A stretch of DNA of 64,000 nt from Macrotis lagotis. Lineage: Eukaryota > Chordata > Mammalia > Peramelemorphia > Peramelidae. Below the pieces are notes generated by a model. The model did no database searches. It had not been told where the DNA came from and worked only from the letters and a program-made list of their open reading frames with translations. Made by a program: the position numbers and the translations under genes. The stretch covers positions 144,203,982 to 144,267,981 of the forward strand of contig NC_133658.1 in the NCBI RefSeq assembly GCF_037893015.1, given 5' to 3'. Below are positions 1-23,959 of the stretch, piece by piece (the stretch's first letter is position 1; each line of letters begins with the position of its first letter).

Positions 1-139
1 GGCCCCTTTTTCATTTTTGGTAAGACAGAATGATCAATACAGGATGGGCAGATATGGAAGGGTTATGATTAGTCTTGCTGATCTTATTACCTCATCTTCC
101 ATCCCATCTTCCAAATTTCTCCCTTCTAAACATTACTTT

Positions 140-345
140 CTTTTTTACCTTCCCATCTCTAGGTTCTCAGCCTCTTCATTATCCTTGAATTCAACTTAAC
201 CAAGTCACTCTCTGAAGTTACCAATGATCTTTTAATTGACAGACCTGATAGTCTTTTTCTCATTTCTTCTTCCTTCTCCAGCCTTTGACACTGTTGATTA
301 CTCTTTGCTCCTTGATACCTATTCTTTCTTCTCTGGGTTGCCACA
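140..345 (+). mobile_element. L2/CR1-clade LINE fragment, reverse-transcriptase motif A region
   Basis: Translation gives VTNDLLIDR (from 217, frame 1) and then AFDTVDYSLLLD (from 281, frame 2). These match in order the conserved stretch of L2/CR1-clade reverse transcriptase around motif A, where AFDTVDH carries a catalytic aspartate. The two pieces lie in different frames, so there is a frameshift near 278, and the first methionine-initiated frame stops at 199. It is a dead remnant. Family placement comes from motif recognition only. Confidence 0.6.
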
Positions 346-787
346 AAACTCCTCATATCTGCACATTTTAAAAACTCAGAAATAGACTTAAATTTTGTTT
401 TAAAAACTTCCAAGTAAATAATTTTGGTGAGTTTTGAAATCACTCCTTTTTTTAAATTCATCTTCCAATTAGTTTCAAAAACAACTAATTGACATCAAAG
501 AAGATAGAAATTTATTAAATAAATCTCAACCAAAACCTTTGCATAATTTGTGAATAGGATTGGAAAAAAATGAGTATCATGTAAATACGTCAACAAAAGT
601 GCTTCTTCCACGTGTTCCTATGTATCTTGAAGTAATATTTCCTATATATAAGACATATTAAAACCAAGTATTGAAACAAACTAAACTTCAATTGGATCTT
701 TGAATCATTACTTTATAAGGTGTTAAGCCAAGATTTGAAAAAAATAATGAAGCTTATATAATTACATTGACCTCACTTAAAATAAGA
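346..787. other. No recognisable feature
   Basis: AT-rich sequence without a frame, RNA or repeat that I can name. Confidence 0.4.
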
Positions 788-1012
788 TCAGATAGGTGGT
801 GCAGTGTATAGAACACTGGGCTTGGAATAATTCATTTTCATGAAATCAGATCTGAGTTCACAGTAATTGTCTGACTCTGGGAAAGTCACTTAACCCTGTT
901 TGACTCAGTTTCCTCATCTTTAAAATGAACTAGAGAAGGAAATGACAAAACACTTCAGTATCTTTGACAAGATACTGAATCAGATCACAAAGAGTTTGAT
1001 ATATTTGAACAA
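788..1012 (+). mobile_element. MAR1-like SINE
   Basis: A degraded tRNA-like head (aggtggtgcagtgtatagaa) is followed by the shared SINE core (gtcacttaaccctgtttgac, tcagtttcctcatc) and then the MAR1-type body 'gagaaggaaatgacaaaacacttcagtatctttg'-like segment at 935-965. The B-box region is disturbed by an insertion around 825-845. Confidence 0.65.
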
Positions 1013-1219
1013 AAACATTTAAAATACTGATTAATGATATTTTAATGAGAACAAAGAAGGCTTTAGTATCATTAAAGAGATATTTTTAAATGATTTAATT
1101 TGCCTCAATCTTTTAAAATTATAAATACATATATTTTATAATATATATTATAATTATTAGTGTAGTAGCACATTTATATAATTTATAATAAGTAAATATA
1201 TCTGTTGGGAGTGAGTGTT

Positions 1220-1269
1220 CTCTCACTTTATTTTAACTAATATATATGTATGTATATATACATACATAT

Positions 1270-1318
<49 letters not shown>
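1220..1318. repeat. (TA)n / (TATG)n microsatellite
   Basis: Alternating TA runs mixed with tatg and cata units, ending in a pure TA run of about 35 bases. Confidence 0.95.
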
Positions 1319-1320
<2 letters not shown>

Positions 1321-1904
1321 ATCAGAAATGTTTGGAGACAACGATCTAAAAAAAGTATAGAATGAGTAAAGGTTAACCTTAAGGTCCTCTTATTAAAAGT
1401 TTTGAATGTCAGATGAAGTGGTTTGGACTTTTTTTGGGTATACAGCTGAGAGTCACTGAAGATTTTTCAGTGAGGAAGTGATAGACTCTGACATTTGTAT
1501 GCAGAATGAATGAGAGGATCATAGCATCTCAAAGTTGGAAAAAATTCAGACTCAGAGACCCTAGTCCAAGTTGTAGTCAACAGAATAAGAGTCCCTTCTA
1601 CAGAACAGTAGACAAATCATATAGCCTTTGCTTGGAGACCATCAATGATGGGAAGCTCATTACCTTGAGCCAGCTTATTACACCTTTGTATAACTAAATT
1701 TTTGGAAAATTTTTCTTGTCAAAAAAGCAAAATTTATTTTTGAGACTTTATGACCACTCTAATTATTGACTTCTGGAGCCATGCAGAACAAATCTAATCT
1801 CTTTCATGCGTAGCCCTTCAAATACTTGAAGGCAATTATTGTGACTTCTCTCAGATCAAATATCCCTAGTTGTTTCAATATTTTCTGCTGTGAATCAGTC
1901 TTCA

Positions 1905-2221
1905 ATCCTCTTCTCACTTTGGTCATTCTCTTTTGGATGAGCTATTGTCAATGACCTTCCCATAATGTGGCATCTAGAATGGAACTCAATATTTAATCTG
2001 TGGCTTGGCTTGGACAGCATAGAGCATACCCACCTCCTCCTCCTTTCTGGAATCTATATGTCTCTAATAAGAAATATTATTAATTAGTATTTATTAGTAA
2101 AATTAGTAAAAATTAGTAAATTTAGTAAATTAGTGAAATTAGTAAATTAATTAATTTAATGTAATAAAGAAAGAACAAATGTTATTATTAATTAGAATTT
2201 GTTCTTTCTTTACTACATCTT
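1905..2221 (+). repeat. Left arm of 317-bp inverted duplication
   Basis: Its reverse complement occurs at 4514-4830. Comparing all 317 positions by eye I see one difference: position 1914 is t where the other arm reads c. Outside the arms similarity ends abruptly on both sides. The arm is embedded in a continuous CR1/L3 element and contains a short hairpin at 2161-2216. Confidence 0.95.
2161..2216. repeat. 20-bp hairpin inside inverted-duplication arm
   Basis: gtaataaagaaagaacaaat at 2161-2180 pairs with atttgttctttctttactac at 2197-2216, with one mismatch and a 16-base AT-rich loop. The same hairpin exists in the other arm at 4519-4574. Confidence 0.85.
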
Positions 2222-2589
2222 AGTATTGATTCAGATGAAACTTGTGATCTATTAACACCCCAGATCTCTTTCTTGAAAATTGTTCTCTGGTTTTGAATCT
2301 TTCACTCTGAATTAGGGAGCTTGATTTTTGAGCTCAATTGCAAAACTTTGCATTTATTCCCATTATATTTAACTTCCTTAGATTCAACCCATAGTTTTAG
2401 CCAGTCATTACCTCTTTGAATCCTGATTATAATGCACTGAATTTGCTTTACTTACCTCTCTAATTTATGCCATCTGCCAATTTTACACACAGGCCTTCAC
2501 CCAAATTATTTAGAAAATGTTAAAGAGATGATGAGGGTGTGAATTATAAACCAAATGAGTAGCCATATTATTTGCTGGACCACCTCTAT

Positions 2590-2885
2590 GTTTCTTCTGC
2601 TGTTTTGAAAGCCTTCCTTTTCTTCAAGGTTTCAGGGCAACTTTAGCAAAAAAAGTCTTTCCTCCAATGTCCTCAGCTAGAAATGATGCCTCCCTCCTCA
2701 GATCTCTCCAGGTGACCTCACATTTGCTTAATCATATTCTAAGTTAAGTCATGGCTCATTCCATCTGCTAGACTGTCAACTCTTCAAGAGCAGAGACTGT
2801 CTGACTCTACTCTCTATCTCCAGAACTGAGTCAGAGCCTTGCATGTACCAGGTACTCAATAAATTTACACTCAATTGAACTGCCA
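2590..2885 (+). mobile_element. L2 3' end
   Basis: Shows the L2 3' landmarks in order: gaaagccttccttttcttca, then 'tagactgtcaactcttcaag', 'agcagagactgtctgactc' and finally 'gtaccaggtactcaataaat'. Strongly eroded. Confidence 0.75.
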
Positions 2886-3039
2886 TGAAATTACCTTTCT
2901 AATTATGATTCACTTAGTATAAAATTACAACTAGTCTGCATTTTCTGAGAACACTCCAGCTAAGCAAATAGGAGAAGTGTGTTGTAATTTAAAATCAATT
3001 TCAGATAATCCATCAAGTCTTGACTTTGGTTGAGTTTAC

Positions 3040-3480
3040 AGAATTGTAATAACACCAAAATAAGATGCTTTTCAAAACATTTCCATAGATATATTATCTT
3101 ATTTTATCTTCACAACATCCCTATAGAAATTATTCCTATTTTTACCAATAGAAAACCAAGTCCCAGAGAAGTTAAATTGTTATGCCCAAGATTATTATTT
3201 TGTCTGTGTACTAGAAAGTGATCCTGTGGTTTCCCAATTATGTATTGACTATAATTACTAATATTAATGTTCACTATTAGTATTACTAATAACTGTTATT
3301 CATACTAATAATGTTTATTAGTACTATGAATAATATATATTAGTAGTACTAATAATAGATAATATTATCATTAGTAGTAGTAATACTAAAAATGATAGCT
3401 AGCAGTTATGCAGAACTCTAAGATTTGCAAAGTGTTTAAAATATAAGATATTTCCAAAGTCAGTGCATTTTAATATTTAG
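3040..3480 (-). mobile_element. Ther1/MIR remnants flanking a TA-rich low-complexity tract
   Basis: 3040-3195 carries an antisense MIR core (atctcacaa-type tail, then ccaagtcccagagaagttaa). 3395-3450 carries another antisense 3' part (gatagctagcagttatgc, tttgcaaagtg). Between them 3240-3390 is a run of taat/tagt units with small inverted repeats, for example ttattcata near 3295 against tatgaataa near 3325. Confidence 0.5.
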
Positions 3481-3499
3481 TAGCTTAAATAATTTTACA

Positions 3500-3682
3500 A
3501 ATATCTCATTTGATTTGATTTGGAATCTAAGGACAAATTCTGGCTCAACTCCCAATCACCTGAGTGACCTTCACTTTATTTCTCTGGACCTGGGGGTCAT
3601 TAATTGTAAAATAATGGGATTAGACCAGATGATCACAAAGATCTTGCTAGTTCTGGGACTCCTCTTTTGTACTCTCTGATTT
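3500..3682 (+). mobile_element. MIR3-like SINE fragment
   Basis: Contains 'gagtgaccttcactttattt', 'gtaaaataatgggattagac' and a 'gatcttgctagttctgggac' tail like the MIR3/CR1-tailed SINE end. Confidence 0.5.
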
Positions 3683-3895
3683 CCCAGCTCTATGTCAAAG
3701 GGTACACAAGTGAAAGAGTCCACATGAATTTGGTACTGATGATAGTGACTTCTTCCTCTCCTACCAAAGCAGGGATTTCAATACAGACTGTCTTAATTCC
3801 AGAGGTGGCAGGCCACTAAACAGTTTACAGGAACTAGCAGACCATAATCACATCTTCTCCCTTAACTGGAAGAGTACAAAAATGTCTATTTTCTT

Positions 3896-4042
3896 TTTCG
3901 GTTTTTGCAAGACAAATGGAGTTAAGTGGCTTGTCTAAGGCCACAATCTAGGTAATTATTAAGTATCTGAGGCTGTAGTTGAACTCAGGTACTCCTGACT
4001 CCAGGGTTGGTGCTCTATCCACTGCATCACCTAGCAGTCCCT
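3896..4042 (-). mobile_element. tRNA-derived SINE (WSINE1-like) with 18-bp TSD
   Basis: Read on the minus strand: tRNA-like head with A box, B-box area gagttcaact, 'acttaataattacctag', 'gccacttaactcc' and a short T/A tail. Flanked by identical copies of aaaaatgtctattttctt at 3878-3895 and 4043-4060, a perfect target-site duplication. Confidence 0.92.
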
Positions 4043-4169
4043 AAAAATGTCTATTTTCTTATGAAGCCACCAAGCAAGCAGGGCAAGGACTTTACATAGC
4101 CTAAAGTAGCATCCAATTCCTAAACTGTGGGTTTGTGCACTAAAAAGGGCTATAAGTTTTAATTAGGAC

Positions 4170-4412
4170 TCTTTAAAAAAAGCTAAGTGGAACATAGGAT
4201 AGTGTTCATCTTCCTGAGTTCAAATCTGAGTTCAGACACTTATTAACTGAGGGATTGTGGGCAAGTCCCTTACCCCTGTTTGCCTCAGTTTCTTCATCTG
4301 TAAAATAAGCTGGAGAAGGAAATGGTAAATCATTCCTGTGATTTTGCCATGAAAACCCCAAATGGGGTCACAAGGAATCAGACATGACTGAATCAACTAA
4401 ACAACAATGATC
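4170..4412 (+). mobile_element. MAR1-like SINE
   Basis: Has the full MAR1-type order: degraded head, tcaaatctgagttcagacac, cctcagtttcttcatctgta, gagaaggaaatggtaaatca, 'aaaaccccaaatggggtcac', gacatgactgaatcaact, then an aacaacaa tail. Confidence 0.85.
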
Positions 4413-4513
4413 AGAAACACCCAAGATGAAGATGAGCTCCAAAGCAATGATAGATCATATCAGTTTATCTTTTTCTGAACAATTTTATACTATCACTTTT
4501 TTCTTTAGCCCAC

Positions 4514-4830
4514 AAGATGTAGTAAAGAAAGAACAAATTCTAATTAATAATAACATTTGTTCTTTCTTTATTACATTAAATTAATTAATTTACTAATTTC
4601 ACTAATTTACTAAATTTACTAATTTTTACTAATTTTACTAATAAATACTAATTAATAATATTTCTTATTAGAGACATATAGATTCCAGAAAGGAGGAGGA
4701 GGTGGGTATGCTCTATGCTGTCCAAGCCAAGCCACAGATTAAATATTGAGTTCCATTCTAGATGCCACATTATGGGAAGGTCATTGACAATAGCTCATCC
4801 AAAAGAGAATGACCAAAGTGGGAAGAGGAT
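4514..4830 (-). repeat. Right arm of 317-bp inverted duplication
   Basis: Reverse complement of 1905-2221 at 316 of 317 positions. Unlike the left arm it is not continued by CR1/L3 sequence on either side, so it looks like the copied, inserted arm. The spacer between arms is 2,292 bp. No clear target-site duplication or A-tail is visible; a weak tttttctt similarity exists at 4498-4505 and 4832-4839. Confidence 0.95.
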
Positions 4831-5690
4831 ATTTTTCTTCCTTCTTTGGACCTCACTCCTAATCTCTACCTTTAAAGAATAAAAATTTTAAATTCCAAGA
4901 TCTCAAAAGGAAGTGAATAATGAAGTGGATGTATGAAGTCTACTATTTACATTTGAGGTTCCCAAGTGTTTGGAACTCTGACATAGATAGGTCAGAGGAT
5001 TTGGAGATGGTAACATCCTTAGACATCATCATTATCATCTTCATCATAGAGCTGAGAGGAGCCTTCATCTGGTTTAACTCATTTAAATAGGAGGGAAATG
5101 AAATATCTTATCAAGGTCCTACCATTATGAGGTAGTACGTCAATATTCAAATTCAGGTTCTCTGATACCAGATCTAGGGTTCTTTTAACTAAACTATATG
5201 AAGGGTCAACCAAAGTCACATAAACACCTTTAGTCAACCACATGCCATTAATCCAACAACAGAAAATGGGACAAGATCAATAATTATGGAGATCCCCCTC
5301 TCAAAGAACAAATCAAAGAACTCAAAGAACAAATCCATACAAGCTTCTAGAACCTCCGTTTGAAAGGAAGAGAAGTACATTAGTGGCCCCAAAGATCAAT
5401 CTCCCCAAACCTCTAATACTCAAAACACATAACTCATGCCTGAGACTAGAATTCTTTGAGAATAAACCTCTGGAAGTAAAAAAAATACAAACTGAAGTCA
5501 TTTAGGCAAGAAAGGTCTGAAATGTTATCTCTTATAACAAAGCTTAGAAATTGGTGAGGCTATTAACTAATAAAGTATACCCCTCATTTTGAAAAAAAAA
5601 ACCATACATACACATTCACATGTAGGTGTAGAGCTTCACTTCTCAATTTCCAACACATGCTTCTGTTTCAGTCAAATTTGTTTTTGCAAG
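4831..5690. other. Mostly unclassified; weak MIR3-like antisense piece
   Basis: 5055-5210 has an antisense MIR-type pattern (ctcatttaaataggagg, gaaatgaaatatcttatcaa, ttcaaattcaggttctctga). The rest is unrecognised. Confidence 0.35.
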
Positions 5691-7740
5691 AAGTAGCAAT
5701 TCCCCCCCCCCTTCCAGGCTTGATCCCATCCATCTTTATATGCCCCCCCATCCACTCCCTTGCCTCTAACCTCCTCATTGCATCTCTTTTTTCCCAGACC
5801 CTCCGGACCCTTCCTTCCTTTTTTTTTTTTTTTTGATCCTTCCTTCAACCCCTGAGCAAATACTCACCCTCCAGGACCACATTGGGCCAGGCATTCCAGT
5901 TCTTAAAAGTCCAGAAAGCCTCCCTCCACTGGGGTTTCCTGCTTGAACAGTGTGGGGGTAGATGACACACTGCTACTGCCTTTCCTTAAGACATCTGAAC
6001 CCAGAAAGGGCCCCAAGCCCCTGGGTCCATTAGGTCTTATCAGAAGTAGAGAATGTTCTCTATCAGGTCTCACCGGCTGCCTAGTGGCAGAAGGAGAAAG
6101 GGGAGGTTCCTGCATGGAGGCTGCAGATTACATAAAACACTCCCTTTCTCCCACCACCCTCCTTCCATCCCAGCATTGAGGCAATTTCTTTTTGGAAATA
6201 CAACAGACCCACTCACTCACCATTTTTCTTCCAGCATAACTCCTTGCCAAAGTATTCCAAAAGAGAAATAATGGGCGAATCACTGAAAAAGAGATCTTTC
6301 CCTTAAACCTTTCCAGTAGAATCTAGCACTAAAGACTACCAATGGGAAAACTTCCCACTGAGTAGAGAATGCCATGCCACAATGGAGGTCTCCCTCTCTA
6401 TGCTCCCAAATAGCTGGGCTGAAAGTTGGGGAGTCCTTCAGAGGCAGGATGCCTGGGGGTATCCTCTGAGACAAAATCCCAAATAACATTGGCTTTTCTC
6501 TCATGGCCAAAAGACTTTCCCCCAGAGTAGCTACCGTCCTCCGTTTCACCAGCCCAAGGGCCACATGACAGGCTTATGTCTCCCTCTATTTTTAAATTGC
6601 CTTCACTGGGGGCCCGTGTGTTCCCTAATTACTGACTTGCAGTGATTCTGGGCACAATCTTAATGACACTGGGACCAAAAATAACAACATTCCTGGGAAC
6701 CAGAGGTGAGTCACCACCAAACAACAGCTCGGAGGAAAGATGGGCCAAAGCAAGAGCTACAAAACTATTCTATATGACTGCCAGAAAAGTCATTGATGCT
6801 TCAACCAATCTCCTCAAAAAAAAGAGTTTAGTTCTACAAGATTGTCACCCTAAGACTATCCTTCTGTCATGACTTGGTTTTCTGAGCCACAACTTATAGT
6901 TTTAGAAGTGGTTTCATTTACAATAGCTGAAGCCATGTGGAGTGGAATGAATTTGCACAATGATGTTTTATATAGTGAGTACACCATGCCCTGGAATGGC
7001 AGGGGCCATTGGGTAAAGAAACCTAAGAATCCTGAAATTAATGAATGTAAACTCAGATGAGAAATATTTGATAGTGTCTTGCAACAGTGATAGTTATCCT
7101 TACCCTGAGAGTTACTATTACTGTACTTATAATCTATGAAATTACAATTATTTATAAAGACATACTTTTAAACCTTTGCATTTCTGTTTGATTATGTCCT
7201 GATCTGAATTGACTTGAACAATAATAATCATGGCAGGACTGGTTCTCAATCTCCCTCACCTGACACTTTCCTTCCCCCTCTTTTCCTGCTCTTCCAGGTT
7301 CCCTGGTGTGGCTGCCATCTGTCTCTTCCACTTTTCTACAGATCCAAATTGGACCTTGCTGTGAGGTCACAGCTGCCACAGAGAAAAAAAAATGACTCTC
7401 TGTGGTCCCAGCCTATGGGCTGCCACCACTTTCCATAGCATCTGTATTGGCAGGAGTCAGCAGAGGCTGGGGATCATAGCAGAGCAGGACCAGAGCATCT
7501 GACCATAACCATGGGAAGCATGAAATAGGGAGGGCAAAGCAAATTTCAAAGCACATTTTGGGAAAAAATCATTAATAAACAGAAATTAAATCCTTAGCAG
7601 ATGTAATTTGAAGCATAGCACATAGGAAAAGAAACGACCTTTGGTGGGAGGGGGGATGTAGAGAATAAATGTAAGCAGGAATGTATTCACTTTGATTCTA
7701 AATCTTTGTATTGTGAGAAAAAAAAATATCTTTCTTAGTA
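5691..7740. other. Unclassified, slightly GC-richer block
   Basis: 5850-6640 is visibly richer in G+C than its surroundings and matches no repeat I know. Donor-like sites exist: GTGAGT on the minus strand at 5867-5862 and on the plus strand at 6706-6711. The minus-strand frame approaching the first has a stop near 5903, and the plus-strand frame near the second shows no recognisable protein. I do not call a gene. Confidence 0.35.
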
Positions 7741-7744
7741 TAAA

Positions 7745-8065
7745 ATTCAGAGAATCAAAGAACTTCAACGTTAGAAGCAACCTTAAAGGTCATTTAATTC
7801 AACCTGTAGAGAAATCTCATTTATGACACCCCAAGTGATCATTCAACTTATGTTGAAAAACCCCTCAGAGACCGAAAACTCTCATTACACCTCCATAAGC
7901 AGTCTCTACTATTTTATTTTGGGGAAACTACAATAGGAAATCATTCCTTAAAATGGCCCCAAATCTTCCAGAGTATAACCTGCCTTCCACATGATACCTT
8001 TACAAATTTGAAACCACCAGTCATGCCTATAAATGATGAATAGGCCAAGTTTTAACAGAAAGATT
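7745..8065 (-). mobile_element. CR1/L3-type LINE 3' end
   Basis: Starts on the plus strand with the CR1 3' end in reverse (agagaatcaaagaacttcaa, ccttaaaggtcatttaattc) and continues with landmarks such as 'actacaataggaaatcattc' and acctttacaaatttgaaacc. Confidence 0.7.
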
Positions 8066-8122
8066 CTGTCCTATATCCAAGAAATGGTATGAAAGTCAAG
8101 ACACACATGCTCTATAAAGTAA

Positions 8123-8404
8123 CAGTGAGAGTAGTGGCATACACCTAAAATCTCTAATACTGAGGGAGCTTTGGGCTGGTGAATTGCTCGATCTTGGCAC
8201 TTCTGGGTTGCCATAAAGCTAAAAGTGATAGGTTATCCTCACCAAGTCTGGCACCATTAGTGTAAATCACTAGGAATAAGGGATTCCCAGGCTATCTAAG
8301 TAGAGGTGAACTGGCTCAGTTTGAAATCAAAGTTAGTCAAAAACCCAAGAAATGGGATTGAATCATAAGAAGTCACTGCACTTCCAGCATGAATGAGAGA
8401 GATG
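8123..8404 (+). pseudogene. RN7SL: 7SL (SRP) RNA retropseudogene
   Basis: Aligns end to end with mammalian 7SL RNA as I remember it. gtggcatacacctaaaatct corresponds to the Alu-domain start gtggcgcgtgcctgtagtc. accaagtctggcaccatta corresponds to actaagttcggcatcaatat. aggtgaactggctcagtttg corresponds to the S-domain gggtgaaccggcccaggtcg. gtcactgcacttccagcat corresponds to the 3' gccactgcactccagcctg. Divergence is substantial and the promoter context is absent, so it is a retroposed dead copy. Its A-rich end runs directly into the purine tract downstream. Confidence 0.75.
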
Positions 8405-8690
8405 TAGAAGAAAACAAAGGAAAAAAGATAGAAGAAAAAGATGTTGAAAAAGAAGGGGGGGTGAGGAGGAGAAAAGAAGCAGGAAAAGGAGGAGAAAATT
8501 AAGAGGGAGGAAGAAGAAAGAAGGAAAAAGAAGAGGAAGAAGAAGGAGGAGGAGAAGGAAGAAGAGAAAAGAAGAAAGAGAAGAAAAGGAGGGGAAGAAG
8601 AAGATAAAGAAGATGAAGAAGGAAGAAGAAGAAGAAGAAGAAGAAGAAGAAGAAGAAGAAGAAGAAGAAGAAGAAGAAGAAAGAACCTTC
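8405..8690 (+). repeat. Polypurine tract ending in (GAA)n
   Basis: Almost pure A and G on the plus strand for about 285 bases, with a pure (GAA)n run at 8622-8684. It begins where the 7SL-like sequence ends, so it is plausibly the expanded A-tail of that retropseudogene. The Glu-run and Ser-run open frames here are artefacts. Confidence 0.9.
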
Positions 8691-8694
8691 GATA

Positions 8695-8835
8695 GGGGGC
8701 AGTTAGGCAGCACAGTGATTAGAGCATGGGTCCTGGAATCAGGAGGAGCTGAGTTCAAATGTGATCTCAGATACTTAATAATTGGGCAAGTCACTTAGCC
8801 CCATTGCCTTGCAAAAAAAACCCTAAACAGACAAA
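8695..8835 (+). mobile_element. tRNA-derived SINE (WSINE1-like)
   Basis: Sense copy: ggcagttaggcagcacagtg head, gagttcaaatgtgatct B box, acttaataattgggcaagtc, cccattgccttgcaaaaa end and an A-rich tail. Confidence 0.88.
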
Positions 8836-8892
8836 CAAAAAGAAATCACAGTGGGTAAAGAAAACTGTTAACAATGTAGAGGTGAACATCTT

Positions 8893-9047
8893 TTTTTTTT
8901 TTTAGGTTTTTGCAAGACAAATGGGGTTAAGTGGCTTGCCCAAGGCCACACAGCTAGGTAATTATTAAGTGTCTGAGACCAGATTTGAACCCAGGTACTC
9001 CTGATTCCAAGGCTGGTGCTCTATCCACTACGCCACCTAGCCGCCCC
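8893..9047 (-). mobile_element. tRNA-derived SINE (WSINE1-like) with TSD
   Basis: Antisense copy with poly-T (its A-tail), ggtttttgcaagacaaatgg, the ccaaggccacacagctaggt core, a gatttgaaccc B box and a cgccacctagccgcccc head. Flanked by tgaacatctt at 8883-8892 and tgaatatctt at 9048-9057. Confidence 0.92.
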
Positions 9048-9084
9048 TGAATATCTTGATATTCAAAAAAATCATTGAATTTGA

Positions 9085-9290
9085 ATCAAGTCAGAAGATA
9101 AGATTTAGTTTTTGGCTCTACTAGAACTTTTTAACTTTGTGACAATGACTAAAACTTTCAGTTTCCTCACTAAAAACTGGGGATAATAATATTTTTTTAT
9201 AATCAGGTTTATGGGATTGTTGTGGAAAAAACCATTTTGCAAACGTTCAAGTGCTTTATAAATGTGAACTACTCTTATGTTACCATTTCA
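9085..9290 (+). mobile_element. Ther1/MIR SINE
   Basis: Sense MIR landmarks: tttcagtttcctcactaaaa, ctggggataataatat, gggattgttgtgg and an L2-like tail, gtgctttataaatgtgaact. Confidence 0.75.
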
Positions 9291-9344
9291 GTTGCAAGAA
9301 ATCCAATTCATCCCTACCCCACAGTTTTCCCCAGGTGAGGAACA

Positions 9345-9480
9345 TGGTACCCTAAGAAGAGTCTTCTACTTGGAGTCCAAGGATCTGAATTCAGATCCCA
9401 TCTCTGATACTTACTGATTTTGTGACCATGGAGGAGTCACCTCCTCCCTCTTGGCTTCAGTGGCTTCCTCTGTATGTAGT
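9345..9480 (+). mobile_element. MIR-type SINE head
   Basis: Contains gagtccaaggatctgaattc, 'gatacttactgattttgtga' and 'gtggcttcctctgt', a degraded MIR 5' half. Confidence 0.45.
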
Positions 9481-10474
9481 AGTCTAAAGGAGCACATGCA
9501 GCTCTGCCATGTATCGTTTCCTACATAGAGGTTGAAGCCTAGCTTGCCCCTGTATGAACATGAGGATATGGAGTGGAGAGACCAGCTATTTCACTTCAAA
9601 GCAAGGGGGAATAAAATAAGTGAGGCTGCTTATTGAACTACTAAGAGCAACTTTTTGATTGCTGGGTTGGATGCACATACAAAAGGAAGCAACCAGACCA
9701 ATTATTCTCTCTTACTGGCTGCATTTGAAGCTTGGGCTTTCACTTAGCCCATTCTTCAACCCCACCCCCCTCCTCTCCCTTTCCCCTACAGTTAAAATGA
9801 GGAAATTGGAACTGAGGCTAAGGTCTCTTCCAGCTCCAACATGCTGTGATTCTATGAGCAAACACAATGTTTTGTTGTTCATGGTTCCCTGCACAGACAG
9901 AGTCCACATGAGGAGACCATCCAACATAAATGAGCCCTTGAAATAATTTCTGTTACTAACAACAGCAGTCTGGAGTAGTCAGCAGAGGGATCTAATCCAT
10001 GATGGAAAAGTTAAAGCTAATAAATCCATTAAAGAACAGGCCTCAGGCCTACCAACTCTCTCCTTGTGTGACATCCAGAGGCTAGCTTATCGGACATTCC
10101 CAGGCAGCGGTAAGCAGCTCTCGGGTCAGCTACCTTGAAAGGCAAGAGTGACCTCCAAAACTTAACCTTCTCTCTAGTCCATGTGGACCTGCCCTGATTT
10201 CAGATACAGATTCCAGTCAAGACCTTTCATCTGTTTTTATGGGCTGAGGAGAACTGCAGGGATATTAAACCCACTCCTAAATCTGGCCTGATCAAATTAT
10301 AGGATGGGGTGCAGGGAAGAGAGGGAAGCTCTAACTACCAAGATTTAAGGATCTTTTTTAATACTTCAAAAGATTTGTAGTCTATTGCTGCACACACACA
10401 TGTCTCCTTTCACAGTTAACATACTGAGAGAAGAACTTAGAAGGGTTATAAAGCATTTTCCTTGCAGCTAAAGG
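9481..10474. other. Mostly unclassified
   Basis: 9793-9858 resembles a MIR3-type tail (aaatgaggaaattggaactg, tcttccagctccaacatg, tgattctatgagc). The remainder shows no gene or repeat I can name. Confidence 0.35.
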
Positions 10475-10905
10475 TAGTAATCAATCAATCAATCAGCATT
10501 TATTAAGCATCCACTGTGGGCTGGCACTGTGTTAAGTATGGAGGATATAAAAAGAGGCAGAAGAAAGTCTCTACCCTCAAGGAGCTTACCTTCTAATGGA
10601 GAAGCAACATATACATTTGCATATATGTACATATAAGATGGAAGGAAAACTTAAGAAGGGAAGGCACTAGCAGCTATGGAGTCTCATGCAGAAAGAAGAA
10701 TTTGAACTGAGTTTTAAAGAAAGTTAAGTGTTTGAATAAATGAAACAGGAGAGAAAACAATTCAGTGTAGGGGGTCAAGCCAAGGAAATGAAACAAAGAT
10801 GGGAAGTATGCATCTGGACCATAGAATGCAGGAAGGAGAATGATGTGTAAGAAGTCTAGAAGGGTAGGAAGAGGTAAGGTTGTAAAGGGAATTTATATGG
10901 ATAGG
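10475..10905 (-). mobile_element. L2 LINE fragment
   Basis: Reverse orientation: agcatttattaagcatccac, ggcactgtgttaagtatgga, ctaccctcaaggagcttacc, then the further L2 body (gaagggaaggcactagcagc, gaatttgaactgagttttaa, 'gtctagaagggtaggaagag'). Confidence 0.8.
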
Positions 10906-11404
10906 TAGGTAAACTGAGGCTCAGGGATCTTTGTCATACCCTCTCCCAACTGTAGGGGACAATTGTGTATCCTGCTCCTTCCCTCTTAAGTTACTAAGGA
11001 TGAGCCCCCTCCAATAGGCTTGACCTCTGAAGACAGACACCCACAGCTCATCTCTGGCACCTTGCTTATAGCAGCATCTCCATCTTGGTAATTCCTGCCA
11101 GAGCTGCCCCCACCCAAAGGAAAAGCCTTCATAAACTGAAAAGCTCTAGAGAAATGGGAGTTGCTATATTTATCTGTGTTGGTGTTTTCTGTCTTAAACA
11201 CTAAGCTTCTAGTGGGTGTAAGCATTTTTAGTCCAACTTAATTTAACGCAACTCAACTCACCTGAACCCTAAGGACCATCTCACTTTCAGGAGAAAGAAA
11301 ACAAATGACAAGTACAGAAGCTGACAGAAGGGAGGGATGTATTCTAAAAGGACTCCTAGAGTATTTCTGGAGGGCAAGACATATTCATACTCATTTTCAG
11401 TTTC
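10906..11404. other. No recognisable feature
   Basis: Unclassified sequence with moderate GC; no open frame of note. Confidence 0.35.
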
Positions 11405-11575
11405 TCAGGTTTCATTTTCAGTACACTTATTATAGCTGAAATTTATAGAGATATTTACCAAATTCTGTGCAATTGGCAGTGTATGTGTTCTTTTCTCCCA
11501 ACTTATTGAAAAGGAAACTGAGGCTCAGAATGGTCACATTGCTATTACCAAGTCAGGTTTGGTAAGAGGTTTAGA
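11405..11575 (-). mobile_element. MIR-type SINE, antisense
   Basis: ttatagctgaaatttataga followed by aaaaggaaactgaggctcag and a degraded 'gtcacattgctattacca' core. Confidence 0.55.
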
Positions 11576-11664
11576 ACTGAAAAGGATCGCAAATCTTATG
11601 TTGCAAATGAGAAAACAGAGATGGGTCCAGAGAGATTGAGCTAAAGGAAGCTAGAAGGAACCAT

Positions 11665-11842
11665 ACAGTGTTAAGAATTCTGAGTCTTGAGTGAGGACGA
11701 CCTAAGTTCAAATTCTTCCTCACACACTTATTAGCTGAATCTAAGTCACTTAACCTTTTGACTGCCTCAATTTCCTCATTTGTAAAATGGTACCTACCTC
11801 CTAAAGTTGTTTTAAGGATCAAGTAATATAACATTTGGAGAA
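11665..11842 (+). mobile_element. Ther1/MIR SINE
   Basis: Sense MIR: aagttcaaattcttcctcac B box, 'taagtcacttaaccttttga', tcaatttcctcatttgtaaa, 'cctaaagttgttttaaggat'. Confidence 0.8.
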
Positions 11843-11849
11843 TTGTCAT

Positions 11850-12240
11850 TTTTATTATATTGGATCAGCCTACCAATGAGCAACTGATATTTTTCTCCAA
11901 TTGTTTAGATCTGACTTTATTTGTGTGAAAAGTATTCTGTAGTTGTGTTCATATAGTTCTTGAGTTTGTCTTACCAAGTCAACTCTCAAGTATTTCATAT
12001 TGACTACTGTTATTTTAAATGGAATTTCTCTATCTCTTGCTGCTGGGATTTGTTGGTCATATATAAAAATGCAATGATTTATGTGGGTTAATTTTATGTC
12101 TGGCAACTTTGCCAAAGTTTAGATGATTCTCTAGGATTCTCTAAATATCCCATCATATCATCTTCACAAAGCGATAGTTTTGTTTTTTCATTGCCTAATC
12201 TAGGTATCACAAAAGAGTTTGACAGGACCAAAATAACTCA
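11850..12240 (-). mobile_element. L1 ORF2 fragment, end of reverse-transcriptase domain
   Basis: A minus-strand frame of 81 codons (12115 to 11870) aligns with L1 ORF2p just after the RT catalytic box: KITVVNMKYLRVDL corresponds to the IKYLGIQL block and NNWRKI to the KWKNIP block. Immediately upstream, in another frame, the reverse complement of about 12134-12180 reads KLSLCEDDMMGYLENP. This is the FADD catalytic box (motif C) with F and A lost but both aspartates kept. A frameshift separates the pieces. 5' and 3' truncated remnant. Confidence 0.85.
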
Positions 12241-12277
12241 ATAGCATTCAAAGAAACATTTGACTTAGAACACTATA

Positions 12278-12443
12278 TTTTGTATTGTTTTGGTTTTTGG
12301 TTTTGCACTTTATTTTTTCCAGTTAAATGCAAAGATAGTTTTCAACATTCATCCATTTACAAGTTTATGAGTTCTACATTTTTCTACCATCCTCTTCTCC
12401 CTCCCCAATCCCCATGGTGGTAAATAATCTGGTACAGGTACAA
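12278..12443 (-). mobile_element. 5'-truncated L1 3' end with 12-bp TSD
   Basis: Antisense marsupial L1 3' end: ccagttaaatgcaaagatag, ttttcaacattcatccattt, gtttatgagttctacatttt, ctccctccccaatcccc. Flanked by perfect copies of tagaacactata at 12266-12277 and 12444-12455. Only 166 bp were copied. Confidence 0.9.
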
Positions 12444-12616
12444 TAGAACACTATACTGTCTAGGAAGGGAAAGGACAAATATAACTTAGAAAAACTTAAG
12501 ATATGAAGGGTGGAAACAATCTCAATTAACTAAAAATTCAAGTATTCAGATTAATTAAGTTTTTATTGTGTCTGACACTTAGCTCAACCTGGCACCCAAA
12601 TGATATTGATGTTCTT

Positions 12617-12783
12617 TTTTTTCTTTTTTTTGTTTGTTTAGGTTTTTGCAAGGCAAATAGGGTTAAGTGGCTTGGCCAAAGCCACACAGCTAGGTAATTA
12701 TTAAGTGTCTGAGGTCGGATTTGAACTCAGGGATTCCTGACTCCAGGGCAGGTGCTCTATCCACTGCCCCACCTAGCTGCCCC
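12617..12783 (-). mobile_element. tRNA-derived SINE (WSINE1-like) with TSD
   Basis: Antisense copy with ggtttttgcaaggcaaatag, gctaggtaattattaagtgt, a gatttgaactc B box and a ccacctagctgcccc head. Flanked by gatattgatgttctt (12602-12616) and gatgttgctgttctt (12784-12798), 13 of 15 identical. Its T-rich tail is about 38 bases and interrupted. Confidence 0.92.
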
Positions 12784-13139
12784 GATGTTGCTGTTCTTAA
12801 TGATAATAAGAGATGAAAGAGGAAAGGGAGGAAAGGAAATAGGAGAGGGAAGAAGAAAAAAACAGAAGAAAGAAATGAAGATAGGTGAATAAGGAGATGT
12901 ATGAGAAGAAAGAGAAAAAGAGAAGAAAAATGGTGAAGTACTTAGTGGTGACTCAAAGAACCAGCTGATACTTTGGGAGAAAAATGTTCACTTCGTGAGC
13001 AATTGAGGATTCTAACATCTACAGAAGTTCTTCTATACTTTAGCATTTGGGGAAATTTAATGAAAATCAAGCCAGAGATTCCTTCTTGTCAGCATATCTT
13101 GCAAAAGATTTGGTGAAAAAGGAACCTAAAACTGCTGAC

Positions 13140-13201
13140 AGTCAGTCAATAAAAATTTATTAAGTTCTCACTATGAACCAATCATCTGGGTTAAGCTCTG
13201 A

Positions 13202-13259
<58 letters not shown>

Positions 13260-13345
13260 CAGTCCCTGTGCTCGAGAACACCCAAAAGGAAGTTGGAAAG
13301 ATGGGGAGAGGAGGAGGTACCTAGAGCAGGGGCATGATGGAGTGG
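13140..13345 (-). mobile_element. L2 fragment interrupted by (AT)n
   Basis: Antisense L2 3' end: 'cagtcaataaaaatttattaag', 'gggttaagctctgaggata', then the microsatellite, then 'acagtccctgtgctcgaga' where L2 has 'cagtccctgccctcaagga'. Confidence 0.75.
13204..13258. repeat. (AT)n microsatellite
   Basis: Uninterrupted alternating AT of about 55 bases, grown inside an L2 copy at its ggatacaaa position. Confidence 0.97.
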
Positions 13346-13679
13346 AGAAGTTTTCTGAAATCCAAAAAATGGTAGAGTTAGAAGAAAACAAATACTCTGG
13401 GCTACCTTGGGATTTCCTTTATCTGTGCTTTGCCACTTTTCTTCCCTCTCTCCTCCCTTTACCTAACATAGAAAATCCTACAGTGGTAGAGTCATCATTG
13501 CCAGGAGTTCTTTACCCTTACATCCCTGCCTTCCACCAGGCCCAAACTCAACAGATGCTGACCCACCCATGATAGCCTCATCACCAGTTGCCCCAGCCCT
13601 ATTGCTACCACAACTAAACAGGAAGCTGAAATCTGAATAGATAGACATTAGACAGATTGATGATAATTAATAATTTATT

Positions 13680-13860
13680 AAATGTTTAAATCTTATCTCA
13701 GATATATATTACCTATGTGACTCTGGGTAAATCATTTATCCTTATTCTGCCTCAGTTTCCTCAACTGTAAAATGGGGATAATATAATGCTTATGTCCCAA
13801 GATTGTTGTGAGGATCAAATGAGATAATATTTATATTTATAGCAGAAACCTGACATATGA
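13680..13860 (+). mobile_element. Ther1/MIR SINE
   Basis: Well preserved sense core: tgcctcagtttcctcaactg, taaaatggggataatataat, gattgttgtgaggatcaaat, gagataatatttatat. Confidence 0.85.
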
Positions 13861-14165
13861 TAGGCATTTATTAAATATTTGTTTTCTTCCTATTATGTAT
13901 CATACACTAAGCTTAGCTCTAGAGACATAAATACAAATAACACAAAGTTCCAAGAACTTATATTTTAATGGGGGAAGAAGAGGTACCCAAGCAGGAGCCA
14001 AGTGGCTGATGAAGAGAGCTCTGGAAAGTGAATCAAGTTTAAAATAAAGCAAATGGGTCCAGGATACCTCTCAAAATGATGGTAGAAGATAGAGAAGGAA
14101 TTCAGCTCAGAGGGGTAAGAAGACAGAGAGTGAGAGGTCCAGAAATAAATCAGCTAGTAATGTCC
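13861..14165 (-). mobile_element. L2 fragment
   Basis: aggcatttattaaatatttg, cactaagcttagctctagag, 'ttccaagaacttatattttaa' as in antisense L2, then a degraded L2 body. Confidence 0.6.
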
Positions 14166-14427
14166 CTCAGAAGTATATTTCTTTATACCAGATCTCATAC
14201 TAAAGTGTGGCAAATGGATAAGTTCAGAAAACCTCTTGTATACTCCTAAAGAAACCTGGGATCCTTAGCTATGAATATCGGTTCTATAGCTTTAATTCAG
14301 CAGCACTAGGACAGCTATAATTAATAATAAAAATATCATTACTATAGTGATTTTAAAACATCATCTCTTTTGATCTTGGGAATACCACTTGACTAATGGA
14401 AAAAATGCTGAATTAGGAGTCAGAGAT

Positions 14428-14640
14428 TGTTGTTGTTTGGTCGTGTCTGACTCTTCATGACCTCATTTGGGGTTATCTTGGCAAAAACACTGGAGTGGTT
14501 TGTCATTTCCTTCTCCAGATCATTTTACAAAGGAAATTGAGGCAATTGGGGGTTAAATGACGCCCTATGTCTCACAGCTAGTAAGTGAACCTGAATTCAA
14601 ATCCTGATTCTTCTATTCTATTCATTTACCTCCCCAGCCC
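14428..14640 (-). mobile_element. MAR1-like SINE
   Basis: ttgttgttgtttggtcgtgt, tgacctcatttggggttatc, ggagtggtttgtcatttcct, then a tctcacagctagtaagtgaa core. The tRNA head is lost. Confidence 0.88.
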
Positions 14641-14719
14641 TCAGTTAACAACATCTAAGGAATAAATAAAGGATTTAGACTACATTTAGCCATTTAATAT
14701 TTAAAGCCCTAGCTTTAAA

Positions 14720-14935
14720 TCTACAATTATTTGAAAAATGTTTAAGTTGTTTGATTCTTATCTTCATTTAACAGTTGAAATAATTAAAGCTCAGAAAGAT
14801 TAAAATTATCACACAGCTGGCTAGCTAAGTAGAAGAGCAGAGATGAGATACAGAGATTCTAATTCCAAACCCAGTGCTACTTCTATTTTACTATGTTACT
14901 CCTCTCTTCCCTTAATATTTCTGAATAAAGTTATT
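14720..14935 (-). mobile_element. MIR-type SINE, antisense
   Basis: 'ttatcttcatttaacagttg', 'agctcagaaagattaaaatt', atcacacagctggctagc, agagattctaattccaaacc. Confidence 0.55.
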
Positions 14936-15029
14936 TTTATAAATATATATACATATATTTATTATATGTGTGTTTCCTTTGTACTGTGCTCTATGAAGAA
15001 GAAAAAGGAGGAGAAAAAAAGAAAGAGTT

Positions 15030-15744
15030 AAAATTGAAAAAGAAGTTGTATAAAGGAAGAAGAGGAGGATGACAAAAAATGGAGAAATATCTTGCTTGTC
15101 ATGGTCCCATGTAAATAATTCTCTTTGTCCTGAGAGTGTTTTGTGTTTTGTTTTTATTTATTTTTGCTCAAGATGATGAATGGGGTTTGGGCACGTTCAA
15201 TCCTCTCCAAGAGCACAGATCCACATTGTGGACTCTACTATCTTGTGCTGCATTATCTCTGAAAAAGTGGTTTTACTTTAATGTCTTAAGACCCTCAATA
15301 GAATTTTGGTCTTCAACCCAACACCATGGGGAATGAACCCTTGTGCCAAAATCTAGACCAATTTTCTTTCCCTGAAAGTGCCTTTGTCAAAAAAAAAACT
15401 TCCTTACCTCATAAGAGCTCTCCCATATTTTATTCAATATAGGAACTTCCAGGAATTCTATCCTTTGGTCTTGTAAAATGAGCTGTGAGAAAATACATTT
15501 CTCCATCCTTGGCAAATAGACTAGAAAACTTTAGAATGTAAGAAACTTCTAGTACCCAGTCACCCCCATGGGTATCCAAAACTTTTTACTAGTTATTTTC
15601 CCCATATTTTCTAATTAGAAAAGAGCAATCATAGGAGCAGACAAATCCCATTTCAACTCAACTAATAGGTGAATGAATATTGGGGCACTCTACATTTTGG
15701 ATTTGCCAATAGTCTTCTGCAATCAGCCAGGGCAATGAGAATAA
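15030..15744. other. No recognisable feature
   Basis: Unclassified. A 66-codon frame around 15136-15336 shows nothing recognisable. Confidence 0.35.
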
Positions 15745-16265
15745 TTTTGTCATAGAGGCATTTCTGTTAGAAGGGATTTTAGAGTCTATCTTGTCCAATT
15801 TATTTCCCCTCAAAGAATTTAATAGGCATAATGTCTCTGTCTTTATCAAAGTTATTATATAAAATGGTAAATCAAACAATCAGTGGTCCCTGTGCACTCA
15901 GCTAGAGATCTCCTTCCAAGATTCCCTCAAATCATTAATGACTACTTCTTAGTTCAGCCATTCAAACTCTTCAAAATCCATCTCATCATATAATCACTTA
16001 ATCTCTATCTCATCAACTTTTTCATATGATTAGTATATAAGACAAATGTTCATTCAGGCTTTGCTTGAAGATTTGCAGTTATAATAATTCAAAGGAAGCT
16101 CATTTCACCTTTGGACAGATCTTTGGAAGGTCTTATTCAGAACGGACATCTGCTTCCCTATCATGTTCCTAAATCCTATGGTAAGGACTTGGGAACAAGT
16201 ATTATAGGTCTAATCTTTCTTCAAATATCTGAAAATCAATGCCTCCTCTGCCCATCCACCCACCA
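15745..16265 (-). mobile_element. CR1/L3-type LINE 3' region
   Basis: Antisense CR1 order: gttagaagggattttagagt, 'caggctttgcttgaagattt', 'aaaggaagctcatttcacct', then a 'tctgaaaatcaatgcctcc' stretch. Middle part eroded. Confidence 0.6.
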
Positions 16266-16429
16266 ACATATACAACCCAGACACTGAATCATAGAATACA
16301 AAATGGGAGCAACCTAAGAGGCCATTTAGTCTAAGCTGTACTTGAACAAGTATATTCTACTACTAATCTGACAAATGGCCATGTAGCCCTTGATTAAAGA
16401 TTATCAGCTGGGGACAACTCCTATCAGTG

Positions 16430-16610
16430 GCAGGATGCACAGTACAATGTAAAGAGTAATGACTCGGGAGTCAGAGGACCTGTTTACTACTTGTGTGACT
16501 ATGGGCAAGTCATAACATCCCTGAAACTCAGTTTCCTCAATTTAAAATGAGAAAGTGGACCTGATGACTTCCAAAGATGATTCTAACTTTATGATCTTAA
16601 TGCCATTTTA
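16430..16610 (+). mobile_element. MIR3-like SINE
   Basis: atgactcgggagtcagagga, 'gactatgggcaagtcataac', aactcagtttcctcaattta, ending in a gatgattctaactttatgat tail. Confidence 0.7.
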
Positions 16611-16737
16611 ACTACTTTGGGATAGCTCAAATTTTAGGAAATTTCCTTCTATCATATCTAAATCTTTCTATATCTTATTCCTAGCACTATCTCTGGAGCC
16701 AAGAAGAATAAATATAATTACTCTTCAAAAAGGTTTT

Positions 16738-16958
16738 TATTATTGTTCAGTTGTATTCAAATCTTCGTGAGCCCAGTTGGGGGATTCACCATTTTCTTCT
16801 CCAGCTAATTTTATAGAGGAGGAAACTGAGGCAAACAAAGTTAAATGATTTGCCCAGGATCACACAGATAGCATGTGTCTGAGGTCATATTTGAACTCAG
16901 ATCTTCCTGACTCTAGGCCCGGTGCACCATCTGCTGCACCATCTGACAGCCCTTCAAA
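16738..16958 (-). mobile_element. MAR1-like SINE
   Basis: 'attattgttcagttgtattc', 'ccattttcttctccagctaa', gaggaaactgaggcaaacaa, gatcacacagatagcatgtg, tttgaactcagatcttcctg and a degraded head. Confidence 0.88.
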
Positions 16959-17071
16959 TAGTAAGCATGTTTCCTTGTCCCCCTGTTGCAAATTTTTTTT
17001 TCCCCTTAAAACTTCCAGGTCTTTTTCAGACATACTGTTATCTAATCATGCCTCACCTAGAGGTAGCTAGG

Positions 17072-17285
17072 TAGTGTAATAGATAAAACCATAGAGTCTG
17101 GCCTTAGAGTCAATAAGATTTGAGTACAAATCTAGTCTTAAGCACTTCCTAGCTCTGTGACCTGGGTAAATTTCTTAACCTCTATCTGCTTCATTATCCC
17201 CAACTGTAAAATGGGGATAATAAGTGTTTACTCACTACTTAACCCAATGTACCTAGTAGGTACTTAATCAATGATTATTCCCTTC
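17072..17285 (+). mobile_element. Ther1/MIR SINE
   Basis: ggtagctaggtagtgtaata head, 'gagtacaaatctagtcttaa', 'cccaactgtaaaatggggat', and 'gtaggtacttaatcaatga' at the 3' end. Confidence 0.75.
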
Positions 17286-17579
17286 CTTTCCCTCTATCTT
17301 TTATTTGCAAAGTATCTCAGATTTCTTTTGATTCCGAATAGAGGCTTTCCATCTATCCTTATTACATTTATTCTTATTGGATTTGACACAGCGTTCTAGC
17401 TTGTCAAATTATTTTTGAATTTTTACTATTACATATTTTGTTAGCTAATCCTCCCAGCTTCAAATCATATCTAAATTTATATTTGATGGCTGCTTCCTGT
17501 CTTTATCCAAGCTCTTGACAGCCTCCAGTCCTTTCTCTAGATTTTCTGTCCCTTAAGTCCAGGTCAGCCACAGAGGGTG

Positions 17580-17750
17580 ATGGAATTACAGATCATATAT
17601 AGTTGGAAGGTTCCTGAACAGGAACTAAGGTCCATAGAGGTTAAGTGACTTTTTCAGAGTCAGCTGGCTAAGTGACTGAGATGGACTTTGAACCCTCATC
17701 TTTCTAAATCTAACTCTAGAATGCAATCCACTAAATCAAATTGCCTCATA
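17580..17750 (-). mobile_element. MIR3-like SINE, antisense
   Basis: ggaattacagatcatatata, 'gtccatagaggttaagtgac', 'gactttgaaccctcatcttt', aatccactaaatcaaattgc. Confidence 0.5.
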
Positions 17751-18684
17751 TGTACACATGTAGTAGGTAGTCACCTATGCAATTCTGAGGGGGGGGTCAT
17801 AACAGTTGAACATATTCATCTGATATCCTGCCTAAATGTTACCTAAACACAGAATATCCCAAACATCCAGTGCAGTTCCAAACAAAGTTTAATTTTGGCA
17901 TAAGGATCTGATTCAGGGTTTTTGAAGGCTCCCCCTAATGTACCACTAATTCTAACATGTCCTACTGAACTGTGAAGACCAGTCCATTTCTAGATTGAGG
18001 AGACTCTTCACCATAGGTTAATATATGTTTTTTGCCCAAAGCAAATCTCTATGAAGTTGTAGAATGTTGTAACTGATCTGTGATCAATAGAGCACTAATA
18101 CAAAATCTAAGCTCTTTGAATTAGTCAAAGCCAGCCTATTAAGAGTCTTCTTTTTACATTTTAAATAACCAGATTACAATGCTGTCACCTGGGACAATAA
18201 GTTCATCCTCTAACTAGTAAAGCATAAGGAAGGGATTCTTCCCTGATCAAATTTCCTGTTTCTCTAAGATGCCATAAAACACTAATTTTACATATAATAC
18301 TCACTTTCAAAAAGATACCCAGTTGTTGTAGATCAGTTAATAAATTTATTGAGAATGAATTCTTCATAGGTAGCTGAAGTCTGCATTAGGAAAGTATGAA
18401 AGGCAATTGGAAGGAAGCTAGAGTCAGAACAATTTCCTGCAAGCTTCCTGGATTTTCTCTCTCCACGAGACCATATACCCTCCTGGAGCTCTCAAATGAA
18501 TTTTCCCCCAGAGGAGAGCAGAAAAGCTGTTCTGTTTCCTACCAACTGAAAGTAAGATGGAGGAATCAGGTATGTATATTGGTAGCTCTTAAAAACTGTT
18601 CCTGGAATATCCCATTTCTCATTTTCTTAAAATGTTCCCTGTGACACAAAAGTTTAAAACATTAAATAATTGTTCTTAAAATCA
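17751..18684. other. No recognisable feature
   Basis: AT-rich, unclassified. The 82-codon frame at 18396-18644 has no recognisable domain and no supporting signals. Confidence 0.35.
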
Positions 18685-18922
18685 GTTAAGTAGCATAATG
18701 GCTAGAGTACTGGATAAAGAGTAAGGAGTGAATTTGAATTTGAATACTGCCCTAGATACTTGCTTTAATCACTCTCAGCCTCAATTTCCAGAACTGTAAA
18801 ATGGAGGTGCTTAATAATATTATCTATCTCCCAGTATTTTGGGGAGGATCAAATGAGATAATGTAGGCCAAGTAATTTATAAACTTTAGAGCATTTTATA
18901 AATGTTAACTGTTATTATACAA
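18685..18922 (+). mobile_element. Ther1/MIR SINE, near full length
   Basis: agttaagtagcataatggct head, 'gaatttgaatactgccctag', 'ctcaatttccagaactgtaa', 'gaggatcaaatgagataatg', and L2-type tail 'gcattttataaatgttaact'. Confidence 0.82.
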
Positions 18923-19544
18923 CAAGTTTCATTTAAATTCCCAACATCTTCATCAACAACCTACAAATATGGGAAAGTCCATCTCATCCTTAAACATCTG
19001 TTATTTCTGAAAAGCTAGAAAAAATAGTACCCAGGAAGGAAAATAAAGCATGGTGAGAATCAGATTAAAATGAATAAAGACTCAAGGCTCTTCACCATCC
19101 CAAGTAATACTAGAATCTTCAGTTAAAAAAGCTTCAGTTCAACAAACTTGCCATTTTTTCTCTCCATCAGTTTCCAAATCTTAATGTGGAATGACCACTT
19201 AGTGAAGAAAATTTAATTTCTGCTGCTCATCTGCCTGTGGCTTCTGCAACAGAAACTGCCCCCAAAGGAAATTTCATGCCACTTATAACTGTTGACAGTG
19301 ATATACTGTCTGCAGGCAGTGAACCAGAGCTCTGATAATTGGCCTAGAAGCTCAGCACTAGGAGAGACGGTGAGGGCCAGCTAGTTTATCCCCTCAACCC
19401 AGTGCTGGAATTCTCTCTCCACTTTGCTTGTTAGTGTTATCTGGTTTCTTTCTGAGATCTTTCAGAGATGGGGATTTGACTGCTTTATAGTGTAAACTGG
19501 ACAAGTCTAATGATGAGGATGGTGTTAAATTAAAAGCCAACACC
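18923..19544. other. No recognisable feature
   Basis: Unclassified sequence, no long frame. Confidence 0.35.
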
Positions 19545-19675
19545 TATATAACCTATATTCGATTTCTTATCATCTCAGGGAGAGGGGAGCGGAGGGAGAG
19601 AAGAAGGGATAGGATTTGGAATTCAAAACTTTAATGTCAAACTTTAACAAAATCTTAAAAGATAAAAAATTATTA
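19545..19675 (+). mobile_element. L1 3' end fragment
   Basis: Sense marsupial L1 3' end: tataacctatattcgatttc, 'gggagaggggagcggaggga' G-rich block, ggaattcaaaactttaatgt. Confidence 0.7.
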
Positions 19676-19754
19676 GTATCTTAGATTTATATAGAACTTT
19701 ATGGCTACAAAGTGCTTTCATGAAGATAGTTAAAACAAAAAAACTCAAAGTTCA

Positions 19755-20075: not shown

Positions 20076-20079
20076 ATGA

Positions 20080-23915: not shown

Positions 23916-23959
23916 TCTTCAATATCTGATTTCCTTATAATGAGATGAATTTTACCTTG

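Follow-up and report, generated by a model that had tools for sequence, protein, structure and literature searches.

How does a 317-nt sequence come to lie twice, in opposite orientation and almost without differences, within a few kilobases of the Macrotis lagotis genome, and is such a pair real? The window analysed here is a stretch of 64,000 nucleotides (C1:144203982-144267981), and searches beyond it covered the assembly of 3.66 Gb in 607 contigs. Self-comparison of the window returned the two arms as reverse complements identical at 316 of 317 positions and separated by 2292 nt. The single difference is T1914 against G4821, which reads C in left-arm orientation. A sequence-only reading had described a 317-bp inverted duplication with a 2.3-kb spacer, and its coordinates, mismatch count and spacer were all reproduced. 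The window's longest exact inverted match (307 nt) lies within the arm pair, and the runners-up measure ≤62 nt and are located in simple repeats. Ranked by identity among the 60 pairs listed (>60 nt), the next pairs are 85–90 nt long and 95.6–97.6% identical. Scanning of a 209-kb stretch (E 1e-20, length ≥100 bp, identity ≥95%) yielded just one further inverted pair, of 144 bp with 95–96% identity, besides the arm pair, the second assembled version of it and the matches between these two. The inverted pair is real. The features discussed below are compiled in Table 1.

Table 1. Features of the inverted pair and its surroundings (window coordinates)
Feature	Position	Strand	Remarks
Window part inside duplicated 79-kb block	1..46321	.	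Other copy C1:144091560-144170921, 99.3%
L3/CR1-like element around the donor arm	1515..2539	-	Outermost ends of matches to related loci; bounds approximate
Left arm, donor	1905..2221	+	Old L3/CR1-like fragment plus AT-rich insert; element antisense to + strand
Sole arm mismatch	1914..1914	+	T in window left arm, C in three other arms
Older insertion (~125 nt) inside donor element	2066..2190	.	ATTAGTAAA-type repeats; bounds inferred
Quasi-palindrome/hairpin	2159..2218	.	Outer edge 3 nt inside the arm's inner end
Spacer, 2292 nt	2222..4513	.	First the remainder of the L3-like element, further on unlike sequence with dispersed repeats
Acceptor left flank	4497..4513	+	T6 tract 4497-4502; TTTTTCTT 4498-4505; TAGCCCAC 4506-4513 adjoining arm
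Right arm, inverted inserted copy of left arm	4514..4830	-	From self-comparison; flanks without L3-like match
Acceptor right flank	4831..4839	+	Second TTTTTCTT at 4832-4839

A genome search with the left arm listed at least 15 matches. Four of these are full-length and all four lie in a duplicated block: besides the window arms, a second arm pair is found at C1:144126429-144126745 (+) and 144129038-144129354 (-), both arms 79,457 bp upstream of those in the window. The remaining 11 listed matches comprise four hairpin self-matches inside the arms and seven partial matches elsewhere (77–90%). The earlier reading had named a young dispersed family, with many near-identical copies in the genome, as the source that would speak against its view of the arms; a full-length arm was found at four places only among the at least 15 matches listed, the counts of this genome search being lower bounds. 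The four arm breakpoints are the same in both assembled copies, and within 60 nt of any junction the copies differ at positions 1908 and 1914 only.

The second arm pair belongs to a long repeated block, C1:144091560-144170921 against 144171024-144250302, of which 79.5 kb were aligned at 99.3% identity with 194 mismatches and 237 gap events. The lone N run of the 209-kb stretch (144170922-144171021, exactly 100 N) directly follows the first copy, and the second copy starts 2 bases past the gap. As the block ends at a scaffold gap and restarts behind it, the two copies are most likely unmerged overlapping contig ends, representing alleles, and not a true tandem duplication. The mismatch density between them is strongly uneven (variance/mean 3.4 in 40 bins of 2 kb); heterozygosity is usually uneven along a sequence. 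A gap between a duplicated pair on one scaffold, as present here, is a listed mark of false duplication in the available text of PMC9516828. The copies of a tandem segmental duplication would be joined by continuous sequence, but 100 N stand at this joint, and a real tandem duplication of the 79-kb block with a gap at its joint is unlikely. Copy-to-copy indels cluster at window positions 21000-39000, with 45 gap events in one 2-kb bin and no rise in mismatches, which suggests a poor consensus in one of the copies. If the block is an assembly duplicate, gene or repeat counts over window positions 1-46321 are probably inflated. Furthermore, the apparent unmerged overlap can serve as a second allele against which the reality of an inverted pair is tested.

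The origin of the arm sequence was traced with a putative CR1-type ORF2 tail as query. It matched the minus strand in three collinear pieces that span 2421 to 1813 and lie inside the left arm as well as to either side of it. The E-values were 1e-6 to 5e-5 when the 1.3-kb region was searched alone; in a search of the whole window, the weakest piece reached 0.009. Around the right arm, the query matched within the arm alone, and the flanks gave no match. Further ORF2-tail pieces were observed at window positions 23964-24321 (E 4.6e-10, better than the donor element) and 54139-54255 (E 0.001).

A genome search with 1640-2064 gave at least 39 matches, 4 in the duplicated block and 35 elsewhere, the latter mostly short and 70–91% identical. 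Sixteen of the 35 listed elsewhere (L032-L047) were examined as related loci. The outer arm edge at 1905 is crossed in single gapped alignments (58–62%) by 6 of the 16 (L035, L039, L043, L044, L046, and L047), and L040 and L044 also align past the inner edge, in order (2317-2400 and 2279-2539). Continuity of the donor past the inner edge rests on these two loci together with the ORF2 piece. Because the left arm lies inside L3-like sequence and no such match occurs in the right-arm flanks, the left arm is the source, which gives the event its polarity. This agrees with the earlier proposal of a donor embedded in CR1/L3 and a right arm without CR1 flanks, on which ORF2-tail and related-locus matches concur. 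The designation L3/CR1 is a putative one, derived from the ORF2 tail and the dispersed old copies and not from a repeat library.

The insert length was measurable in 2 of the 16 related loci: relative to the window, the distance between the flanking blocks is reduced by 127 nt in L040 and by 125 nt in L044. This spacing was determined by pairwise collinearity, a multiple alignment of five loci over the insert being too noisy. The AT-rich tract of ~125 nt, with tandem units at 2093-2149, is an older insertion in the L3-like copy that was carried along in copying, and probably includes the left hairpin stem. The hairpin itself is significant (z -6.5, 0/200 shuffles as good; z -4.5 in a separate fold test). 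Four other stretches folded around the junctions revealed no significant hairpin (z -1.35, 0.14, 0.12, and -0.45). A candidate across the outer acceptor junction (~4814-4850) was rejected: it pairs the right-arm end imperfectly with the acceptor flank (CCAAAG..GGAAG / CTTCC..CTTTGG) and folds with -21.9 kcal/mol using RNA parameters without a control, but with DNA parameters (z -1.35) 15/200 shuffles were as good, which is not significant. A second cluster of TTAGTA/TACTAA units, resembling those of the AT-rich insert of the arms, occurs in the spacer at window positions 3240-3384; both clusters may stem from local copying, or from chance in AT-rich DNA. That the hairpin inside the L3 copy is the trace of an earlier inverted copying step, and the locus a repeat offender, seems improbable. 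If true, the inverted repeat of each event would seed the next, first a short stem and then the 317-bp arms, and the 317-bp pair would now favor more rearrangement or, if transcribed, long dsRNA.

At the acceptor site, an 8-nt direct repeat, TTTTTCTT, is found 8 nt before the right arm and 1 nt after it. When 20,000 sites were drawn at random from the window, 0.63% of them shared ≥8 nt in the same 20-nt flanks. On the left, repeat and arm are separated by 8 nt, TAGCCCAC, which have no second copy within the window and may be filler, or possibly original acceptor sequence. Past either arm end the sequences of donor and acceptor differ immediately and no homology remains, so that junction microhomology for a template switch cannot be shown. 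Neither junction carries poly-A, and the T6 tract ends 11 nt before the acceptor junction. The absence of an A-tail had been noted before. The accompanying statement that there is no clear target duplication has to be qualified in view of the offset TTTTTCTT copies flanking the right arm. In the genome search, the acceptor flanks 4420-4513 and 4831-5060 matched only here and in the second copy, a result that is not proof of rarity, the flank search skipping very common words. None of the 16 related loci matches the flank 4831-5300, and the sole match to the flank 4150-4513 is a dispersed element inside 4175-4475, present in 10 of the 16 loci and in some of them several times.

In our best reading, the locus carries a templated insertion of local origin and young age, in which an L3-like fragment was inverted; such insertions are a known kind of mutation. 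We somewhat favor a single recent local copying event as its origin, namely a template switch of the FoSTeS/MMBIR type with return to the acceptor. Synthesis at the acceptor (now 4513/4831) would have quit its template, switched to the + strand of the L3-like fragment, followed it from ~2221 down to 1905, and returned to the acceptor at 4831. The result would be a 317-bp copy in flipped orientation, 2.3 kb away from the donor. The four switch points would run in the order 3-2-1-4 from left to right (4513 -> 2221 -> 1905 -> 4831), or in the mirror order 1-4-3-2 if written from the other strand. An inverted copy of a nearby intact donor, forming one inverted repeat, is what the locus displays. 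According to the available text of PMC7954356, the orders 1-4-3-2 and 3-2-1-4 are the majority patterns and yield single inverted repeats, and poly(dA:dT) tracts are enriched ≤150 nt from switch point 1 in great apes. The T6 tract of the acceptor agrees weakly with this enrichment, although such tracts are frequent at the G+C content of the window (32–41%). The hairpin and the T tract could have been sites that favored switching, and template switching at a replication fork would be the presumed route. Only one of the five folded junction stretches contains a significant hairpin, which counts against a template switch.

The nearest rival, which we regard as a tentative and clearly less probable alternative, is a class 2 templated sequence insertion. 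Here a double-strand break at the acceptor would have been patched by end joining with a nearby L3-like copy, the template being either DNA or a reverse-transcribed RNA copy. As far as the available text of PMC5110952 describes them, class 2 insertions bear non-templated nucleotides, lack target-site duplication and poly-A, and measure 73–414 bp when obtained experimentally. The insert of 317 bp falls within these sizes, and the missing poly-A, the possible 8-nt filler TAGCCCAC and the offset direct repeat at the acceptor are in keeping with such a patch. Given the offset 8-nt TTTTTCTT and the 8-nt filler, repair of a staggered break fits at least as well as a template switch. However, class 2 is defined by distant donors in the same text (PMC5110952), and the donor here is 2.3 kb off. 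Moreover, the patch departs from the template switch only in the steps of synthesis and joining.

Comparison of all four arms bears on the age of the event. Position 1914 is T in the window left arm and C in the three other arms; position 1908 is T in the left arm of the upstream copy and C in the three others. The right arms of both copies are identical. Among the related loci aligned at 1908 and at 1914 (n = 6), C was found in 4, T in 1, and A in 1 at each position. Most simply, the two changes would be private C>T substitutions, or consensus errors, in the left arms. As both variable positions are private to one left arm, four-arm parsimony indicates most simply that the arms were 317/317 identical when the copy was made. 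The idea that the arm mismatch, which lies 10 nt in from the end, marks a 9-nt priming microhomology was dropped, because the left arm of the other copy also has C at 1914.

The divergence between arms is 1/317 in each copy (0.3%, 95% CI 0.008–1.8%), similar to the 0.245% between the 79-kb copies (15 in 8000, or 0.19%, across window positions 1-8000). The event is thus recent, one of the options named before, and most simply the age of the arms is close to that implied by how far the 79-kb copies have diverged. Two changes on a four-arm tree place it at ~1.6× allelic depth with an upper limit of ~8×, both figures assuming that the 79-kb copies are alleles and the lower limit being uninformative. 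With the koala mutation rate of 6.12e-9 per generation as reported in the available text of PMC13247528, a rate of our choice, the age would be of the order of 3e5 generations and at most ~1.7e6. Presence of the insert in both assembled copies fits an age at or before their split.

An old inverted pair held alike by gene conversion, which had been raised as a possibility, is very improbable. High identity alone does not exclude it, but each of the two variable positions is changed in a single arm, the divergence of 1/317 is as expected of young age, and identity stops abruptly at both arm ends next to unrelated flanks. A variant common to both arms of one copy, the pattern left by conversion, was found at none of the 317 positions, a weak test given that only two positions vary; gene conversion is not needed to account for the arms.

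Class 1 LINE-mediated retroposition of an L3-containing transcript with target-site duplication is barely credible: the available text of PMC5110952 calls for a direct repeat of ≥5 bp, which the 8-nt TTTTTCTT repeat exceeds, and for a poly-A tract of 10–40 residues, but class 1 fails since poly-A is missing at both ends, and in addition one of the repeat copies stands 8 nt away from the arm and the cut would read TTCTT/CC (junction reading) instead of TTTT/A. The earlier preference for template switching or break repair over retroposition was borne out. An assembly artefact, or artificial homogenization of the arms through consensus polishing, is scarcely plausible: polishing with short reads could increase the apparent likeness of arms that are already nearly identical, and the region does hold an apparent assembly fault in the 79-kb block present twice across the 100-N gap, but the junctions of the right arm agree between the two assembled copies, whose left arms each retain a different private base. 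Because the same pair with the same four junctions was assembled twice, an artefact of a single contig, as formerly considered, is very unlikely.

The arms could physically form a 317-pair RNA duplex if transcribed. No function is indicated for the inverted pair, and the analysis revealed nothing at it that would speak for a function or for gene conversion. The window holds no Rfam match at gathering score, no tRNA gene and, in the 10 ORFs scanned out of 41 ORFs of ≥90 aa, no Pfam family at E 0.01; thus, no gene context was found. A dispersed repeat of ~160 bp, presumably SINE-like, occurs in many copies, in the spacer (3888-4042) and at 8890-9048, 12612-12783, 41957-42119, 43380-43552, 44701-44882, 49294-49457, and 56080-56244, which are ~82–92% alike among the 60 pairs listed. 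An inverted piece of 85–90 bp at 35806-35901 is up to 97.6% identical to one of them.

Among known systems, template-switch inverted insertions (four-point; FoSTeS/MMBIR) share with the locus the inverted copy of a nearby template, the return to the original site and the single inverted repeat, as well as the AT/poly-T context and a hairpin nearby. The locus differs in scale: its copy measures 317 nt and lies 2.3 kb from the donor, whereas the template-switch events of the great-ape study reportedly involve shorter copies over a shorter range. Class 2 TSIP, as far as described in the available text of PMC5110952, are alike in insert size, intact donor, lack of poly-A and possible filler bases, whereas the local donor, the inverted copy and the presence of the insert in both assembled copies set the locus apart. 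The 79-kb block resembles false duplication on one scaffold, as characterized in the available text of PMC9516828, in its near-identical blocks, the gap between them and their heterozygosity-like divergence. What the locus offers beside these systems is a clean, datable local inverted templated insertion whose donor and copy can be read together with the junctions and with a second assembled version.
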